Source of the DNA: Argopecten irradians
Lineage: Eukaryota > Mollusca > Bivalvia > Pectinida > Pectinidae
Assembly: GCF_041381155.1 (NCBI RefSeq)
Contig: NC_091147.1
Coordinates: 12,153,030-12,217,029, forward strand
Direction of reading: 5' to 3'
Length of the DNA: 64,000 nt
Made by a program: the position numbers and the translations under genes. Under the pieces are notes generated by a model, which had not been told where the DNA came from, searched no databases, and was given only the letters and a program-made list of their open reading frames with translations. Positions 324 to 49,665 of this stretch are shown here, piece after piece. Within the stretch, counting starts at the first letter, position 1, and every line of letters starts with the position of its first letter.

Positions 324-425
324 CTATAACTGCCAACACTTCGTCATCATCTCCTCGAAGTACTCGTCCAGGTCTATAAAGGCGCTCACTCCACTGTAGT
401 AGTCGACAAACTCATCAAAGGTAAC
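324..425 (-). CDS. Duplicate terminal exon of calcyphosin-like gene, inverted orientation
   Basis: This 102-base segment encodes the last 33 residues of the calcyphosin-like protein plus a TAG stop, and I see no base difference from exon 4 at 42598-42699. It keeps a consensus acceptor (TTTTCCAG) at its 5' side. It lies 21 kb upstream of exon 1 and on the opposite strand, so it cannot be spliced to exons 1-3 in the arrangement shown. No copies of exons 1-3 are visible next to it. The strand is open through the preceding minisatellite to 629, giving 101 residues, because the repeat unit is 45 bp. It is either an orphan exon, the tail of a paralogue cut by the window edge or array, or a misassembled allele. 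Perfect identity means recent duplication, gene conversion or allelism. Confidence 0.85.
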   Translation of the reverse strand, partial: VTFDEFVDYYSGVSAFIDLDEYFEEMMTKCWQL

Positions 426-690
426 CTGGAAAATAAACAGGGTTATCATATCAAACTCATCAAAGGTAACCTGGAAAATAAACAGGGTTATCATATCAAA
501 CCCATCAAAGGTAACCTGGAAAATAAACAATATTATCATATCAAATTCATCAAAGGTAACCTGGAAAATTAACTGGGTTATCATATCAAACTCATCAAAG
601 GTCACCTGGAAAATAAACAGGGTTATCATATCAAACTCATCATAGGTAAACTGAAAAATAAACAGGGTTCATCAAAGTTGACCTTTAAAA
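421..690 (-). repeat. 45-bp minisatellite duplicating the exon 4 splice acceptor (left copy)
   Basis: About five clear units plus degenerate outer ones. Each unit, on minus, contains a pyrimidine-rich TTTATTTTCCAG acceptor followed by the first 18 bases of the terminal exon (VTFDEF) and about 15 bases of spacer. The 45-bp period keeps the exon frame, so the translation repeats [15 protein letters not shown] without a stop. The counterpart at 42340-42597 has about the same number of units but carries indels that close the frame. Confidence 0.9.
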
Positions 691-1429: not shown

Positions 1430-4400
1430 ACACTGATAAATACCACAAAATCAGCAAAGATGAAAAAAGGCTATTATCACAAAATCAGCAAAGATGAAAA
1501 AAGGCTATTACCACAAAATCAGCAGAGATGACAAAATAACCTATTATCATAAAATCAGCAGAGATGACAAAAAAGCCTATTATCAATAACACAGCAGAGA
1601 TGACAAAAAACCTATTATCACTAACACAGCAGAGATGACAAAAACCTATTATCAATAACACAGCAGAGATGACAAAAAATCTATTATCACTAACACATCA
1701 GAGATGACAAAAAAATCTATTATCACTAACACAGCAGAGATGAAAAAAAAGCCTAATGTCACTAACACAGGCAGAGATGACAAAAAAAAACCTATTATCA
1801 CTAACACAGCAGAGATGACAAAAAAGCCTATTATCAACTAACAAATCAGAGATGACAAAAAAAACATAGAGATGACAAAAAAAACCTATTATCACTAACA
1901 CAGCAGAGATGACAAAAAACCTATTATCAATAACACAGCAGAGATGACAAAAAATCTATTATCACTAACACAGCAGAGATGACAAAAAATATATTATCAC
2001 TAACACAACAGAGATGACAAAAAAGCCTATTATCAATAACACAGCAGAGATGACAAAAAAACCTATTATCACTAACACAGCAGAGATGACAAAAAAAACT
2101 ATTATCAATAGCTCAGCAAATATGACCAAAAAAACCCATTATGAATAACACAGCAGAGATGACAAAAAACCTATTATCACTAACACAGCAGAGATGACAA
2201 AAAAACTATTATCACTAACACAGCAGAGATGACAAAAAAGCCTATTATCAATAACACAGCAGAGATGACAAAAAAACCTATTATCACTAACACAGCAGAG
2301 ATGACAAAAAAGCCTATTATCAATAACACAGCAGAGATGACAAAAAAACCTATTATCAATAACACAGCAGAGATGACAAAAAATATAACACACAAGATGA
2401 AAAACTATTATCAATAACACAGCAGAGATGACAAAAAACCTATTATCAATAACACAGCAGAGATGACAAAAAAGCCTATTATCAATAACACAGCAGAGAT
2501 GACAAAAAAGCCTATTATCAATAACACAGCAGAGATGACAAAAAAACCTATTATCAATAACACAGCAGAGATGACAAAAAAACCTATTATCAATAACACA
2601 GCAGAGATGACAAAAAAACCTATTATCAATAACACAGCAGAGATGACAAAAAATCCTATTATCAATAACACAGCAGAGATGACAAAAAAGCCTATTATCA
2701 ATAACACGTGCAGAGATGACAAAAAACTATTATTACTAAAACAGCAGAGAGATGACAAAAAACACAGCTAAAAGCCTATTATACTAACACAGCAGAGATG
2801 ACAAAAAAAACTATTATCAATAACACAGCAGAGATGACAAAAAAAGCCTATTATCAATAACACAGCAGAGATGACAAAAAAGCCTATTATCAATAACACA
2901 GCAGAGATGACAAAAAAACCTATTATCAATAACACAGCAGAGATGACAAAAAAACCTATTATCAATAACACAGCAGAGATGACAAAAAAAAATCTATTAT
3001 CAATAACACAAGAGAGATGACAAAAAAAAGCCTATTATCACAAATAACACAGCAGAGATGACAAAAAAAGCCTATTATCAATAACACAGCAGAGATGACA
3101 AAAAAGCCTATTATCACTAACACAGCAGAGATGACAAAAAAAACCTATTATCAATAACACAGCAGAGATGACAAAAAAGCATATTATCAATAACACGACA
3201 GAGATGACAAAAAAAACCTATTATCACTAACACAGCAGAGATGAAAAAAAGCATATTATCAATAACACGACAGAGATGACAAAAAAGCCTATTATCAATA
3301 ACACAGCAGAGATGACAAAAAAGCCTATTATCACTAACAGGCAGAGATAACCAAAAAACCCATTATGAATAACACAGCAGAGATGACAAAAAAAACCTAT
3401 TATCAATAACACAGCAGAGATGACAAAAAAGCCTATTATCAATAGCTCAGCAAAGATGACAAAAAAACTATTATCAATAACACAGCAGAGATGACAAAAA
3501 AGCTTATTATCAATAGCTCAGCAAAGATGACAAAAAAACCTATTATTACTAACACAACAGAGATGACAAAAAACCTATTATCAATAACACAGCAGAGATG
3601 ACAAAAAAGCCTATTGTTACTAACACAGCAAAAAGATGAAAAAAAAACCTATTATCAATAACACAGCAGAGATGGATGAAAAAAGCCTATTATCAATAAC
3701 ACGACAGAGATGACAAAAAAGCCTATTATCAATAACACAACAGAGATGACAAAAAACTATTATCACTAACACAGCAGGATTATCAATAACAGGCAGAGAT
3801 AACAAAAAACCTATTATACAATAACACAGCAGAGATGAAAACAAAAAAGCCTATTGTTATCAATAACACAACAGAGATGACAAAAAAAAACCACCCTATT
3901 ATCAATAACACAGCAGAGATGGATGACAAAAAAGCCTATTATCAATAACACGACAGAGATGAAAAAAAACCTATTATCAATAACACAGCAGAGATGACAA
4001 AAAAGCCTATTATCACTAACAGGCAGAGATAACCAAAAAACCCATTATGAATAACACAGCAGAGATGACAAAAAAACCTATTATCAATAACACAGCAGAG
4101 ATGACAAAAAACTAAAAAACTATTATCAATAACACAGCAGAGATGACAAAAAACCTATTATCAATAACACAGCAGAGATGACAAAAAACATTAAACACAG
4201 CAAGATGACAAAAAAAACCTATTATCAATAACACAGCAGAGATGAAACAAAAAGCATTATCAATAACACAGCAGAGATGACAAAAAAAAGCCTATTATCA
4301 ATAACACAGCAGAGATGACAAAAAAGCCTATTATCACTAAACAGAGCAGAGATACAAAAACAACAAAAAACCTATTATCAATAACACAGCAGAGATGACA

Positions 4401-7400
4401 AAAAAGCCTATTATCAATAACACAGCAGAGATGACAAAAAAAACCTATTATCAATAACACAGCAGAGATGACAAAAAAGCCTATTATCAATAACACAGCA
4501 GAGATGACAAAAACTATTATAAAACACAACAGAGATGACCTATTATCAATAACACAGCAGAGATGACAAAAAAGCCTATTATTCACTAACACAGCAAAGA
4601 TGACAAAAAAAACCTATTATCAATAACACAGCAGAGATGATCAAACAAGAAGCCTATTATCAATAACACGACAGAGATGACAAAAAAGCCTATTATCAAT
4701 AACACAGCAGAGATGACAAAAAAAGCCTATTATCAATAACACAGCAGAGATGACAAAAAAGCCTATTATCACTAAACAGGCAGAGATAACAAAAAAGCCT
4801 ATTATCACTAACACAGCAGAGATGACAAAAAAACCTATTATCAATAACACGACAGAGATGACAAAAAAGCCTATTATCAATAACACAGCAGAGATGACAA
4901 AAAAGCCTATTATCACTAACACAGCAGAGATGACAAAAAGCCTATTATCAATAACAGGCAGAGATGACAAAAAAACCTATTATCACTAACACAGCAGAGA
5001 TGACAAAAAAGCCTATTTATCACTAACAGGCAGAGATAACAAAAAACCTATTATCACTAACACAGCAGAGATGACAAAAAAAACCTATTATCAATTACAC
5101 AGCAGAGATGACAAAAAAACTATTATCACTAACACAGCAGAGATGACAAAAAGCCTATTATCAATAACACGTTCAGAGATGACAAAAAACTATTATTACT
5201 AAAACAGCAGAGATGACAAAAAAACTATTATCAATAACACCGCAGATATGACAAAAAATTATTATCACTAACACAGCAGAGATGACAAAAAAACCTATTA
5301 TTACTAACACAACAGAGATGACAAAAAACCTATTATCAATAACACAGCAGAGATGACAAAAAAGCCTATTGTTACTAACACAGCAAAGATGACAAAAAAA
5401 ACCCACCCTATTATCAATAACACAGCAGAGATGGATGACAAAAAGCCTATTATCAATAACACGACAGAGATGAAAAAAGCCTATTATCAATAACACAGCA
5501 GAGATGACAAAAAAGCCTATTATCACTAACAGGCAGAGATAACCAAAAACCCTATTATGAATAACACAGCAGAGATGACAAAAAAGCCTATTATCAATAG
5601 CTCAGCAAAGATGACAGAAAAAAAACTAATTATCAATAACACAGCAGAGATGACAAAAAAGCTTATTATCAATAGCTCAGCAAAGATGACAAAAAAAACT
5701 ATTATCAATAACACAACAGAGATGACAAAAAACCTATTATCAATAACACAGCAGAGATGACAAAAAAGCCAATTGTTACTAACACAGCAAAGATGACAAA
5801 AAAACCCTATTATCAATAACACAGCAGAGATGGATGACAAAAAGCCTATTATCAATAACACGAAAGTGATGACAAAAAAGCCTATTATCAATAACACAGC
5901 AGAGATGAACAAAAAAAACCTATTATCAATAACACAGCAGAGATGACAAAAAAACTGTTATCACTAACACGTGCAGAGATGACAAAAAAGCCTATTATCA
6001 CTAATACAGCAGAGATGACAAAAAAGCCTATTATCAATAACACAACAGAGATGACAAAAAACCTATTATTACTAACTAACAACAGAGATGACAAAAAATC
6101 ATATTATCAATAACACAGCAGAGATGACAAAAAATCTATTATCACTAACACAGCAGAGATGACAAAAAAATCATATTATCAATAACACAGCAGAGATGAC
6201 AAAAAACTCTATTATCAATAACACAGCAGAAGATGACAAAAAACCTATTATCAATGACACAGCAGAGATGACAAAAAATCTATTATCACTAACACAGCAG
6301 AGATGACAAAAAATCATATTATCAATAACACAGCAGAGATGACAAAAAATCTATTATCACTAACACAGCAGAGATGACAAAAAATCATATTATCAATAAC
6401 ACAGCAGATATGACAAAAAAGACTATTATCACTAACACAGCAGAGATGATCAAAATCCTATTATCTCTAACAGGCAGAAATAACAAAAAAACCTATTATC
6501 ACTAACACAGCAGAGATGACAAAAAACTCTATTATCAATAACACAGCAGAGATAACAAAAAAGCCTATTATCAATAGCTCAGCAAAGATGACAAAAAAAC
6601 TATTATCAATAACACAGCAGAGATGACAAAAAAAATCTATTATCAATAACACAGCAGAGATGACAAAAAATCTATTATCGATAACACAATAGAGATGACA
6701 AAAAAAAGCCTATTAACAATAACACAGCAGAGATGACAAAAAAGTCTATTATCAATAACACGACAGAGATGCCCAAAAAAGCCTATTATCACTAACACAG
6801 CAGGGATGAAAAAAAAGCCTATTATCACTAACACAGCAGAGATGAAAAAAAGCATATTATCAATAACACGACAGAGATGACAAAAAAACCTATTATCACT
6901 TACACAGCAGAGATGACAAAAAAGTCTATTATCAATAAACACAGACAGAGATGACAAAAAGCCTATTATCAATAACACAGCAGAGATGACAAAAAAGCCT
7001 ATTATCACTAACAGGCAGAGATAACCAAAAAACCCATTATGAATAACACAGCAGAGATGACAAAAAAAACTATTATCAATAACACAGCAGAGATGACAAA
7101 AAAGCCTATTATCAATAGCTCAGCAAAGATGACAAAAAAAACTATTATCAATAACACAGCAGAGATGACAAAAAAGCTTATTATCAATAGCTCAGCAAAG
7201 ATGACAAAAAAACCTATTATTACTAACTAACACAACAGAGATGACAAAAAACCTATTATCAATAACACAGCAGAGATGACAAAAAAAGCCTATTGTTACT
7301 AACACAGCATAGATGACAAAAAAAAACCTATTATCAATAACACAGCAGAGATGGATGACAAGAAGCCTATTATCAATAACACGACAGAGATGACAAAAAA

Positions 7401-8830
7401 GCATATTATCAATAACACAGCAGAGATGACAAAAAAACCTATTATCACTAACACAGCAGAGATGACAAAAAAACCTATTATCACTAACACAGCAGAGATG
7501 ACAAAAAAAACTATTATCAATAACACAGCAGATATGACAAAAAAAACAACCTATTATCAATAACACAGCAGAGATGACAAAAAAAACTATTATATCAATA
7601 ACACGTGCAGAGATGACAAAAAACTATTATTACTAAAACAGCAGAGATGACAACAAAAACTATTATCAATAACACCGCAGATATGACAAAAAAGCCTATT
7701 ATCAATAACACAACAGAGATGACATAAAAAACCTATTATCAATAAACACAGCAAAGATGACAAAAAAACCACCCTATTATCAATAACACAGCAGAGATGG
7801 ATGACAAAAAGCCTATTATCAATAACACGACAGAGATGAAAAAAAGCCTATTATCAATAACACAGCAGAGATGACAAAAAAGCCTATTATCACTAACAGG
7901 CAGAGATAACCAAAAAACCATTATGAATAACACAGCAGAGATGACAAAAAAAACCTATTATCAATAACACAGCAGAGATGACAAAAAAAGCTTATTCACA
8001 AAGCTCAGCAAAGATGACAAAAAAACTTATTATTACTAACACAACAGAGATGACAAAAAACCTATTATCAATAACACAGCAGAGATGACAAAAAAGCCTA
8101 TTATACTAACACAGCAAAGATGACAAAAAAAAACCCTATTATCAATAACACAGCAGAGATGATGACAAAAAGCCTAATATCAATAACACGACAGAGATGA
8201 CAAAAAAGCCTATTATCAATAACACAGCAGAGATGACAAAAAGCCTATTATCACTAACAGCAGAGATAACAAAAAACCCATTATGAATAACACAGCAGAG
8301 ATGACAAAAAAGCCTATTTATCAATAGCTCACAGCAAAGATGACAAAAAAAACCTATTATCAATAACACAGCAGAGATTACAAAAAAGCTTATTTCTTTT
8401 ATCAATAGCTCAGCAAAGATGACAAAAAAACTTATTATTACTAACAAACAGAGGTGACAAAAAAACCTATTATCAATAACACAGCAGAGATGACAAAAAA
8501 GCCTATTTGTTACTAAATCAACAGCAAAGATGACAAAAAAAACCTATTATCATAAAACAGCAGAGATGGATGACAAGAAGCCTATTATCATAACACGACA
8601 GAGGATGACAAAAAAGCCTATTATCAATAACACAGCAGAGATGACAAAAAAGCCAATTTTATCACAAACACAGCAGAGATGACAAAAAAAGCCTATTATC
8701 ACTAACAGGCATAGAGATAACAAAAAAACCTATTATCACTAACACAGCAGAGATGACAAAAAAAAACCTATTATCAATAACACGACAGAGATGACAAAAA
8801 AGCCTATTATCAATAACACAGCAGAGATTG
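1430..8830. repeat. 36-bp minisatellite array (left), about 200 copies
   Basis: The unit on plus is close to ACAGCAGAGATGACAAAAAA followed by GCCTATTATCAATA, length 34-37 bp and modal 36. Variants alternate AATAACACAG, ACTAACACAG, AGCTCAGCAAAG and ACGACAGAG. Blocks recur with a higher-order pattern: a unit with GGCAGAGATAACC followed by one with CCCATTATGAATAAC appears near 3340, 4020, 5535, 7015, 7900 and 8265. The outer-edge units (1430-1560) carry an older CACAAAATCAGC form. Because 36 is divisible by three, long spurious frames run on both strands (MTKKPIINNTAE on one, LIIGFFVISAVL on the other). It is the inverted counterpart of 30408-41560. Confidence 0.97.
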
Positions 8831-21560: not shown

Positions 21561-42699
<21,139 letters not shown>

Positions 42700-42919: not shown

Positions 42920-43626
42920 TGTTACATGAACGATTAACAGAAATGGGAGAAACCAGCAGCTAAATTCAAAACACAATTTAATTATATATACAATATTATA
43001 CAGAGATGATTTACAATATCTAAAGTAATTGGTGGTGGTACAAGGGTAATACGATGATTTAAAGTGTTACTTATCTGTATGCGAATGTCCTGGTATAATC
43101 TTGATCCTTCCAGGTTTTAAGGCAACAATAATCACAAATCCACGAGGAAAATGAATGTCCACAGATGATATGTAAAGTTCCAGGCAATATGAATAAATCC
43201 ACACAAAGTGTTGTAATAATCCACAGATAAAGTCACAATAGCTCTCCCAATAGAATCTTGTATGGCGCTATACAATTCTTGATATGTCTAATTACAGGTC
43301 TCATTACAGTTCTGATTAGCCTTGGACAGCTCGAGTATATATAGCTAAACCCTAGTTCAAGAATATTGGAGAACCTTCTACTTCTAGAAATATCTAACTA
43401 AAAACAGTAAACAAATAAACACACAGAACTTTCTGGAAATAGATCATTCTAGATCTCTACTTAAAATCAACATGTTTACAAACATATTTGTTTATACATG
43501 GTAATATTCTAGAAAGTTCTATAACCTAAATTAATTATATGAACTTTATAGGATGTATTGATAGTGTAGCTATAGGAGTTATCTCCCCTATCTAATAACT
43601 ACATGTATTTAGTGTCATACATAACA
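42920..43626 (-). repeat. 3' LTR of the Gmr1-like element
   Basis: 707 bp with TGTTA/TAACA ends, next to the polypurine tract. About fifteen single-base or short differences from the other LTR. Confidence 0.93.
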
Positions 43627-46600
43627 CACCCCTCCTTAAAGAAAAGAAAGTTTTCTTGAAAAGGAAACTTTCTTGAAATATCAAGTAACGTTTAAATCCT
43701 TGATAAAGCATCAGCTAGAATATTGTCTTTTCCTTTGATATGTTTGATGTCAAGATTGTACTCTTGCAAAGTCAAACTCCACCTGAGAATTCTTTGGTTT
43801 TTGTTTTTCATTTTCCCAATGAATGTCAAAGGGTTGTGGTCGGTGAAGACCAACACAGGCACAACTGTAGTGCAGAGATACACATCAAATTGGTTCAAGG
43901 CCAAAATCAACACTAAACATTCTTTCTCAATGGTGGAATAATTTCTCTGGTGTTTGTCAAACTTTTTCGAGAAATAACAAATTGGATGGTCAATTTGTTC
44001 AGAACCTTCTTGCATCAAAACAGCACCAACACCTACATCGCTGGCGTCAACAAACAGTTTAAACTGTTTATTAAAATCTGGAGCAGCCAGAACTGGTGAG
44101 TTTGATAATATGGCTTTCAATTTTCTCAAAGGCAGACTTACATTCGTCTGACCAGACAAATTTGACATTTTTCTTTAACAAAGCAGTAAGTGGAGCTGCT
44201 ATAACAGAGAAATTTTGACAAAATTTTCTGTAGTATCCAGCCATACCAAGAAATGTCATCAGCTCTCTCTTGCTTCCAGGAGTTGGAAAATCTATAATTG
44301 ATTCTACTTTGGCCTGAACAGGTTTAACCTGCCCCTGTCCTACAACATGGCCCAAAAATTCAACAGTTGCATGACAAAATTCACATTTCAATAAGTTTAC
44401 AGTCAATTTCATGGTAGTGAGTCTTTCGAAGAATTCACGAATCCCGCGTAGATGGTCTTCCCACGTGTCGTGGTAGTTGATGACGTCATCAATGTATCCA
44501 TCGCAGCCTTCCAGGTCTGATATAACGCTGTTAAGAAGACGTTGAAATGTTGCCGGGGCATTCTTCATACCAAACGGCATAACTTTGTACTGGTATAAAC
44601 CTTGTGAAGTTACAAATGCCGACACTTCTTTGGCTCTTTCTGTTAATGGTACCTGCCAATATCCTTTCAACAGGTCAAACTTGCTTACGTACTTGGCTTT
44701 GCCAACTTTGTCAATACATGAGTCAATCCTTGGAATTGGATAAGAGTCTGTTTTACTTTTCTGAAGTCAGTACAGAACCGGTAGGTCTTGTCTGGCTTTG
44801 GCACCAGAACACATGGAGAGCTCCATTCACTTTTGCCTGGTTCAATAATATCATTGTCCAACATATATTGAATTTCTTTCTTTAAATGTTCTTCTTTCAA
44901 AGGATTGACACGGTAAGGATGTTGCTTGACAGGTGGCGCATCGCCTACATCCACGTCGTGATAGATAGCATCTGTTTTGCCTGGTGTATCCGGAAACAAA
45001 TGTTTAAACTCAAGTATCAAATCTTTCAGTTCATTGCGTTCCTTTTCTGATAGATGACATAGTTTCTTGTCCAAGATCGCGAGCACATCTGAGTTCCGTA
45101 ACTTAACACCACAGTCTAAACCTACATCTTGTACACCACCATCTAAGTCTAATTTACAAATATCAGCTGTACTTTCACTTTGTGATGGTACAGAGGCCAA
45201 AGTAGCAATAGGTTGAGAGGTCTTGCTCTCTTCTCTATCTACATATTTCTTAAGCATATTAACATGACATAATTGAGTTTTCTTGCGCCTCCCTGGATTT
45301 TCTACAATGCAGTTAACATCATCGACCTTTTTCTCAACAACATAAGGTCCAAAATATCTAGCTTGCAAAGGCTGACCCGGTATTGGTAATACAGCCAAAA
45401 TGTTGTCACCTGGATCAAAACTTCTTGCACGGGCATCTTTATCATACCATGTTTTCATTTTGGTTTGAGTAACGGCCAAATTTTCTTTTGCCAGTTCACA
45501 TGCCCTTGTCAACCTTTGCTTAAAGTTAGACACATACTCTAAGAGATTCACTTTAGAATCTTCGTCCAAAATTTTGTCTTTCAAAATTTTCAAAGGACCA
45601 CGTACAGTATGTCCAAACACAAGTTCAAAGGGACTGAAGCCAAGAGATTCTTGTACAGATTTTCTAACGCCAAACAACAACATGTGTATACCTTCGTCCC
45701 AATCTCTTTTGTTTTCAAAACAATAAGATCTCATCATATTCTTTAATGTCTGATGAAAACGTTCTAAAGCACCCTGAGACTCTGGATGATAAGCACTAGA
45801 CTTATACTGCTTGATCTGGAGCTGGTACATGACTTGTTGAAAAATACCAGACATGAAATTCGAACCTTGGTCCGATTGGACCGCTTTTGGAAGACCAACC
45901 AATGTAAAGAATTTAACCAAAGCCTTGACAGTGTTAGGGGCCTTAATATTCCTGAGTGGAATGGCTTCAGGAAAGCGTGTGGAAGCACACATAATAGTTA
46001 AAAGATACTCATTCCCAGACTTAGTTTTGGGTAGAGGACCTACACAGTCTATAATGACTCTACTAAATGGTTCCTCAAATGCTGGAATGGGGTGCAAAGG
46101 TGCAACAGGGATTTCCTGATTAGGTTTCCCTACCACCTGACAAGTATGACAAGACCTACAAAAATCAGCCACATCCCGTTTCAACTTGGACCAAAAGAAG
46201 TGATCTAAGATCCTGTTATAAATCTTGGTCACACCTAAATGCCCTGCCATAGGTACGTCATGAGACAAACTCAGAATATCTTGCCTATACCTCGGTGGGA
46301 CAACTACTTGATTGACAACCTTCCAGTCTTCCTCGGGAGACACATCAGGGGGGCGCCAACACACCTGACTTACGGAAGTAACAAACTGGGACTTTCTCAA
46401 CCTCTTCCTCACTCAAAGCACGATTACACAATAAGGAGATTTCAGGATCTTTTTCCTGTTCTACTATCAGCTCCTCTCTAGACAAAGATGATTTACTCAT
46501 CATGTCAGCAAAGAAGTACCCTTGTTAGGAACAACTCTATCACTATCAAAGTCTACAGGATTGCTCAAAAGATCACACTTGCTCCCGACATCCTCTTTAT

Positions 46601-48587
46601 CATGAGCCAAGAAAGTGTCACCTAACCCTGGACTATAATGATCCTCAACTACTGCAACATTAGAAACCTTCTTACTCATTGAACGAGTTACAGCACAAGA
46701 AGGGAAAATACCAGGAAATTCCTGTTGAATAGTCTCAGCATCATCTGTTTTATCAGGGATACTGGACACAAAGGGATCTACCCTAACTTTCTCTCCAGCC
46801 AAGTCATTGCCTAAAATGAGCGACACGCCCTCTATAGGAAGTTCCGGTCTAACACCAATGGTGACAGGCCCAGTAACCAAGTCTGACTTTAAATAAACAG
46901 AATGGAGAGGCACATTAACAAAACCTAACTCTACACCTTGAAGCAAAACACTACTACCAGATGAGGTCTCCTCAGACAAAGGCACTACGCCATCTAATAT
47001 CAAAGAATGAGAAGCCCCAGTATCTCGCAAAATCTTCACAGGTTTCAAGTTGGTAATATCACTAGTAAGTGAAACAAAACCTTCAGAAATGAAGGGAGAG
47101 TACTTCTCCAAGACACTATCAGACTCTGAGCTCTTAATCTCAAAAGACACTTTAGAATCTTCCACAATATCACTAAGTTTCCGACTAGGCTTTGACATAG
47201 CTACACAGAAGGAACTGACTGTTAACGCCTTTGCTCCTTACGCTGGAGAGAATAACATTCAGACATAACATGCCCTACTTTCTTGCAGTAATTACAAATA
47301 GGACCAGAAGGAGACCCCACACCTACCCTATCATCTGTTTTAGAAGCAGACTTAGTCTTATCACCTAATTTAAGTTTGTCGTTAGAAGGGCCACTAAAGG
47401 TTGGGTTCCTAGACTGACCAAATTTACTAGTACCTGTGGTACTGTTTTTGTCTTGAGAACTGTTTTTAACAAATGAGCCTTTGTGGGTGAGAGCGTAATC
47501 ATCAGCCATTGTAACTGCTTCACTAAGCGTTTCAACTTTTTCTCTCATCTAAATGAGTTTTTTATGTTTATGTGGACACAACGTTTTAAACTCATCTATC
47601 AACAACAATTGCCTCAATTTACCGAAATCCTCATCAATTTCTTTAGAATCACACCACCTATTAAATAATTGTTCTTTTTCTCTGGCAAATTCTACATGAG
47701 TTTGTTCATCTCTCTTTCTCGAGTTTCGAAATTTCTGGCGGTAAGCCTCAGGAACTAACTCATTAGCTTTCAAAATAGCTTTCTTAACTACTTGGTAATT
47801 TGAAATGTCATCAACAGACAAAGAAGAATAAATGTCTCTAGCTTTACCAATCAAGACACTTTGAAGAAGCATTGTAAGCTTATCTTCAGGCCATTTCATA
47901 CTATCAGCTATTTTCTCAAAATGCAGAAAATACTTGTCAACTTCTTTCTCTTGAAAAGGAGGAACTAACCTAATGTTTCTACTGACATCAAAACCTCTGT
48001 TTCCTTGTAAACCCCTAAAAGTTGGATTACTTGAACTGTCTTGAGAAGCTAGCTCTAATTCTTTAATTTTAAGTTCTGTTTCAGCTTGAATTTTATGCTT
48101 CTCTAGCTCTAACATCTAAATCTCTCTCAATCTCTTTTTCTCTTAACTCTTTTTCTATTTCTCTTTCTCTCATTTCTTTCTCTATTTGTTTCATTTTCAT
48201 TTCATGTTCAAGTTCCATTTGTCTAATTTTGATTTCTGAAGTGACTGTTTCCTCTATATTATCTAATGCACTAGAGTCAAATTTGCCATTGTCAACAAAA
48301 TATCTTATAATTACATTCCTAATTTCAGCTTTCCTCAAATTAGTTTTGATAGTAAGGCCTAAATGTTTACCCAATAACAGTAAATCCTTCTTACTAACTT
48401 GCAAAAGAACTTCCAGGGATGGCGCTTTAACAAACTGTTCTACCTGTATAGAAGTCATGTCTATCTAGCTGTTGGTTTCAAATGTAAACTCCAAGTTTGT
48501 ACACAAATTTTGAAAATTTCTTAATTAATTTTTCGAAGTTAGATTTCACAAATAAAATATCGATCTCGGACAAGAGCCCCCAATTCC

Positions 48588-49294
48588 TGTTACATGAACG
48601 AATAACAGAAATGAGAAACCAGCAGCTAAATTCAAAACACAATTTAATTATATATACAATATCATACAGAGATGATTTACAATATCTAAAGTAATTGGTG
48701 GTGGTACAAGGGTAATACGATGATTTTAAAGTGTTACTTATCTGTATGCGAATGTCCTGGTATAATCCTTTATCCTTCCAGGTTTTAAAGCAACAATAAT
48801 CACAAATCCACGAGGAAAATGAATGTCCACAGATGATTTGTAAAGTTCCAGGCAATATGAATAAATCCACACAAAGTGTTGTAATAACCCACAGATAAAG
48901 TCACAATAGCTCTCCCAATAGAATCTTATATGGCGCTATACAATTCTTGATATGTCTAATTACAGGTCTCATTACAGTTCTGATTAGCCTTGGACAGCTC
49001 GAGTATATATAGCTAAACCCTAGTTCAAGAATATTGGAGAACCTTCTACTTCTAGAAATATCTAACTAAAAACAGTAAACAAATAAACACACAGAACTTT
49101 CTGGAAATAGATCATTCTAGATCTCTACTTATAATCAACATGTTTACAAACATATTTGTTTATACATGATAATATTCTAGAAAGTTCTATAACCTAAATT
49201 AATTATATGAACTTTATAGGATGTATTGATGGTATAGCTATAGGAGTTATCTCCCCTATCTAATAACTACATGTATTTACTGTCATACATAACA
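48588..49294 (-). repeat. 5' LTR of the Gmr1-like element
   Basis: 707 bp, same length as the 3' LTR. The primer-binding site lies directly inside it. No matching target-site duplication: TAGAT flanks the left end and CGATG the right end. Confidence 0.93.
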
Positions 49295-49665
49295 CGATGA
49301 CCTTAAGATGTCCTCAAGTTTATTTGTAAAGTATCATGCGCATGGCTAGCTATATTCGTTCGAAAGATCGTTAGTCCATGTATATCCGCATTGTTGACAT
49401 GTGATGAAGTCATCGAATGAAGACAGACAACTCTAGTATCGTATATATCTAGGGTTAGATAGCTTCATTGAGTGAATAAACACACGTTCTTCACATGGAT
49501 TATCTACATTTCATTCCAATAATGAACTTCTGTCGCGCCTCCACAGAAAAACTAAAATAAATCAGTAAATAAATCATAGAAAATTAAATTTGGTGAGTAT
49601 GACGTTTCCTTGTGCTCTGTACTTTTTGGCGCATAACTTGATCTGAAAGAAATATCAAAATTATG
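49295..49665. repeat. Direct repeat copy 1 (also at 51152-51521), transposon end
   Basis: Starts CGATGACCTTAAGATGTCCT, the base after the LTR, and is about 95% identical to 51152-51521. From about 49580 to 49985 it also matches, inverted and more diverged, 55085-55548 (shared TTTACCCGAGAGTACGTGTT and GGCGCATAACTTGAT-type motifs). It is best read as one terminal region of the DNA transposon whose transposase lies between. Confidence 0.75.

Follow-up and report, generated by a model that had tools for sequence, protein, structure and literature searches.

A minisatellite of splice acceptors at the last intron-exon boundary of a predicted calcyphosin-like gene in Argopecten irradians

The host gene

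The window analysed here, a 64 000 nucleotide stretch of contig NC_091147.1 from the bivalve Argopecten irradians, holds exons of a predicted EF-hand gene. On the plus strand, an upstream EF-hand exon (22093–22270) is followed by the exon before the last (25067–25279), which ends in KDGL at the donor GTACGT; both were located by tblastn and sequence reading. The coding part of the last exon lies at 42598–42699 on the same strand (tblastn and translation), and the copy to which it belongs is collinear with the two upstream exons. A further copy of the last exon stands inverted near the left edge of the window, where its coding part (324–425, minus strand) translates as 33 residues and a stop. 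The spliced 167-residue reading, whose first four residues are read across the acceptor, had matches along query residues 2–167 to a calcyphosin-like protein (11yj, E 2.2e-49) and to calcyphosin (3e3r, E 4.5e-43). Both extend along the EF-hand domains as far as the C-terminal end and, judged by sequence, place the host among the calcyphosin-like EF-hand genes. The junction between the last two exons, KDGL/VTFDEF, is in phase 0 within EF-hand 4, as in calcyphosin.

Two minisatellites overlie splice junctions of this gene. One has a 45-bp unit, sits on the acceptor of the last exon and is the subject of this work. The other (22253–22391, plus strand, identified by TRF) consists of 5.6 copies of a 25-bp unit that repeats the end of an exon together with the donor GTAAAT; it overlies the donor of the exon at 22093–22270, giving the gene both an acceptor and a donor array. 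The calcyphosin paralogue on contig C6 has no such array at its junctions, so the junction array is not ancestral to the family. That paralogue (L036–L038, G000:C6:3485255-3502057) has two single EF-hand exons, after which the last exon occurs five times, every copy with an AG before it and a stop at its end; these copies may be alternative last exons. An array with a 59-bp unit, repeated 74.8 times, terminates immediately 5′ of the fourth copy.

Anatomy of the acceptor array

In the left copy, TRF placed the 45-bp tandem array at 407–674 on the minus strand, with 5.9 copies, 91% matches and 0% indels, and its acceptors and frame were then read from the sequence. The unit spans the intron-exon boundary: 27 intronic bases ending TTTTCCAG are joined to 18 exonic bases, GTTACCTTTGATGAGTTT, and in each unit the intron-end part reads GATATGATAACCCTGTTTATTTTCCAG before the exonic bases begin. 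TRF and the sequence thus agree with the preliminary description, which had the unit containing a 3′ splice site and the first 18 coding bases of what proves to be the last exon.

The authentic acceptor of the left copy, with its first exon base at 425, adjoins the full exon. Five decoy acceptors lie upstream of it in 45-nt steps, with first exon bases at 470, 515, 560, 605 and 650. The AG is retained in every unit, and the full authentic exon follows acceptor 425 only, so that splice signals recur through the array and a single authentic junction stands at its edge. Decoy 470 matches the authentic site at 23/23 upstream bases and 18/18 exonic bases, and decoy 605 does so at all 23 upstream bases; since 425 and 470 are identical, local sequence cannot favour one over the other. 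Beyond the last decoy, a diverged acceptor-like AAAG/GTC was read from the sequence (675–690, minus strand; first exon base 682). It lies 32 nt before 650 and is therefore out of phase.

A pyrimidine-rich stretch is also kept in the decoy units, and those from 605 inward have a branch-like TGATAA (TGATAAC) as well. Retention of AG, pyrimidines and branch-like motif together would suit a regulatory role, in which splicing factors bound by the array of acceptors would delay or regulate removal of the last intron, the repeated sites themselves going unused. Copying alone explains the kept signals, however, and the C6 paralogue does without an array; we consider such a role most improbable.

Over the searched sequence, the region of the array matched only its own two copies and a 45-base intron-flank stretch at C14:12520929. 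A dispersed repeat was rejected on this pattern of matches, obtained with a search that skips very common words.

Two inverted copies

The inverted counterpart of the left copy comprises the exon, the array and part of the intron, and similarity ends at 42920. The right array (42345–42616, plus strand; TRF and frame reading) has seven acceptors, two of which are open: 42598, adding no residues, and 42553, adding 15. The other five run into stops that stem from small, mostly homopolymer-type indels, and these indels may be assembly error. An alignment of the two copies over 1492 bases shows 92% identity and 52 gaps; in the unique stretches flanking the array, the copies differ at 1/323 and 1/314 bases. 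As to length instability between alleles, within this single assembly the two window copies have equal unit numbers and differ by small indels.

A tblastn search of the window with 40 kb to its left and 30 kb to its right found both upstream exons on the plus strand only, at 22 and 25 kb, besides a 35% match (E 0.44) in the left flank. The partner exons are absent from the left copy's own strand over this span, and it stands alone as an inverted duplicate exon.

Long intronic minisatellites with a 36-bp unit, mutually inverted, occupy both arms (1447–8828 and 30411–41474). TRF gave 71–72% matches and 14–16% indels for the right-hand one, as against 82% and 6% for the left. An LTR retroelement lies at 42920–49295, with LTRs at 42920–43627 and 48588–49295 that are 97.7% identical; no clean target-site duplication was seen for it. 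Similarity between the arms stops at the left end of this element.

The two arms could be one locus assembled twice, with the indels of the right array being consensus errors. A poor consensus on the right is suspected because the 36-bp array there is also the noisier one, and the near-identity of the copies beside the arrays, their 92% identity broken by 52 gaps and the halt of similarity at the start of an LTR all point the same way. On the other hand, the outer flanks do not run into each other, unlike those of two assemblies of one allele, the window contains no run of N, and a recent true inverted duplication would look nearly alike. We put a partial artefact of this kind at somewhat below even odds. 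Such an artefact would affect the copy number and the right copy's frame; it is compatible with our preferred reading of the array, set out below.

Other junction arrays in the genome

A further 45 EF-hand loci outside the window were read, drawn from 147 matches, 25 of them with 1.5-kb flanks and 20 with 250-bp flanks. The loci were picked by score and lie mostly outside a cluster on contig C3, so the sample is non-random; that cluster (G000:C3:2.1-2.56 Mb) is dense in EF-hand exons, with dozens of matches. Donor-edge arrays were found in four of the 45: L051 (642–1512, G000:C14, approx. 10.09 Mb; 21 bp × 39.6), L054 (25 bp, at least 59.9 copies), L069 (37 bp, at least 7.5 copies) and L070 (42 bp × 2), the arrays of L054 and L069 reaching the locus end. 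L049 was left uncounted, as its array starts just after the donor and the exon is not copied. Together with the 25-bp donor array in the window, this makes at least five further junction minisatellites in this genome.

One of these belongs to L051, a calmodulin-like gene in which approximately 816 bp (approx. 95%) of an 858-bp intron are copies of its own donor site. The motif AAAG/GTAAAG is exact in 22 units, and the open frame reads IDYKGKV. This 21-bp array keeps phase, and its frame stays open through roughly the first ten units, the first stop coming after 101 residues. Among the five junction arrays besides the 45-bp one (units of 25, 21, 25, 37 and 42 bp), it is the only one both in phase and open; the 42-bp array of L070 meets a stop at once.

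Arrays with a period of at least 15 make up 9.1% of the flanking sequence and 0.8% of the sequence in domain matches. Taking domain edges as a proxy for exon edges, which they approximate, we counted 4/90 edges within arrays in this non-random sample, against 6.5 expected from random shifts of the arrays (P(≥4) = 0.92). No enrichment of arrays at junctions was found on this count. Junction arrays are no commoner than random placement gives, and special targeting is therefore not needed. For the window gene, two of five placed junctions fall in arrays; at 9% each, by our own arithmetic, the chance of this is approximately 0.07.

Reading frame of the array

From acceptors 470, 515, 560, 605 and 650, translation runs uninterrupted to the authentic stop and gains 15, 30, 45, 60 and 75 residues, respectively, and a chance AG within a unit, at 572, is also open (+49 residues). 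This bears out the earlier proposal that each unit contributes 15 residues within EF-hand 4. The accompanying statement that every left-hand unit is in phase and stop-free holds for the five decoys and fails at site 682.

How much an open frame means was gauged by shuffling the unit's intronic portion 20 000 times, with its last 9 nt kept; 63% of the shuffles remained open. A unit length divisible by three is expected in one-third of cases, which with the 63% gives a joint chance of approximately 0.2. Phase is weak evidence at that chance, the more so because the units are mutual copies and hence not independent. Across the genome, in-phase open units occur in two of the six junction arrays, the 45-bp array of the window and the 21-bp array of L051, which is near chance. 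Selection for frame is unsupported given these two figures, and the in-phase open frame of the 45-bp array is probably incidental.

The preliminary description went further, proposing that choice of acceptor makes a protein of variable length. In its fullest form, this would be a coding array in which a ladder of acceptors yields calcyphosin isoforms longer by 15n residues after the EF-hand 4 loop, with the frame under selection. Five left decoys open to the authentic stop, acceptor sequences that are near-identical among units and the partly open array of L051 are what such an arrangement would produce. Yet four of the six junction arrays lack in-phase open units, most shuffled units stay open regardless, and the five left decoy units show 10 base differences between them, 7 of which fall in codons whose amino acid is changed. 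A unit that is a multiple of three and open is found at the five left decoys and not at site 682, and in the right copy, the one in line with the gene's other exons, 5/7 acceptors are closed, with the caveat that the indels behind those stops may be assembly error. The proposal's one support is the open frame, which is itself near chance. We regard a coding array under selection as very unlikely, and a length-variable protein from the 45-bp array is unproven.

Discussion

A host exon whose 3′ splice site has become a repeat was initially described as unusual. That is overstated: junction minisatellites already have a name, mirages, in the available portions of two papers (PMC3087553, PMC3902484), and at least five others occur in this genome. 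In the first of these, as far as its available text goes, amphioxus mirages are described as tandem repeats of the minisatellite type that copy an intron-exon boundary, whether acceptor or donor; many units carry AG or GT signals, and the globins BflGb6 and BflGb9 and Adh3 are among the hosts (PMC3087553). BflGb6 carries an acceptor-side array, with six and three units in two haplotypes; data for Adh3 and RT-PCR of globins suggested that mirages do not disturb regular splicing, and the same portion of the paper proposes them as a route to new introns (PMC3087553). Troponin C and PGBD5 appear as further amphioxus hosts in the part available of the second (PMC3902484).

The array described here shares with the amphioxus examples, in so far as the available text presents them, a tandem unit that spans the boundary and splice signals in many units, and with BflGb6 the acceptor side. 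It differs in that the host is a protostome, that donor and acceptor arrays share one gene and that the acceptor unit is open in phase; donor arrays elsewhere in this genome also reach approximately 40 and 60 copies. One of the amphioxus hosts, troponin C, we take to be an EF-hand gene itself. Among microRNA families that are presumably protostome, the genome gave eight matches to mir-2, five of them within approximately 1 kb on contig C2, and one match to bantam over the cut-off. A cephalochordate origin, which the likeness to mirages had raised, was set aside on these matches.

In human segmental duplications, boundary minisatellites averaging four units of 30 bp can alter splicing or form introns, according to the portion available of PMC2812944. 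These internal tandem repeats resemble the present array in lying at exon-intron boundaries; they concern primate paralogues with transcript support, whereas the array here is known from genomic sequence alone. An interferon-induced human transcript with a donor minisatellite is cited by title in PMC2572611; the minisatellite of human 6-16 (IFI6/G1P3) is on the donor side, in contrast to the acceptor-side array of the window. Minisatellites inside introns feature in the available text of PMC12783039, and the portions available of PMC3862624 and PMC4201569 contain no junction array. In the literature covered on minisatellites, splice sites and molluscs or bivalves, no junction array from a mollusc was found.

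Taken together, we favour, with a probability of about 0.8, a splice-junction minisatellite, or mirage, that grew neutrally where the final intron of the calcyphosin-like gene meets its last exon and that leaves most splicing to the exon-adjacent acceptor. The duplication itself is visible in the tandem units. It took in 45 bases, 27 from the intron and 18 from the exon, as a single unit, in a protostome genome rich in minisatellites, and the array may then have spread into the intron by ordinary minisatellite slippage or unequal exchange. It was probably tolerated because an intact acceptor remains beside the exon. Most mRNA would be expected to come from this acceptor, and the decoys would yield minor isoforms at most, longer by 15n residues. 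The near-identity of the decoys to the authentic site and the second, donor-side array in the same gene support this reading. Counting against it, the left array with its five open decoys would also fit coding use, and the splicing precedent is an analogy from another phylum.

A bolder reading is that growth of junction minisatellites is recurrent in this protostome, lengthening introns from their own splice sites, and that where units are in phase, the result is an in-frame ladder and graded EF-hand isoforms, whose range would vary with unit number between individuals. The 45-bp acceptor array and the 21-bp IDYKGKV donor array of L051 would be its examples; we hold this reading to be highly doubtful. 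The 45-bp array adds to a known kind of exon-edge repeat. The presence of six junction arrays at EF-hand exons in one protostome genome suggests that such arrays originate wherever minisatellites abound, and they are natural material on how the spliceosome chooses among many near-identical sites.
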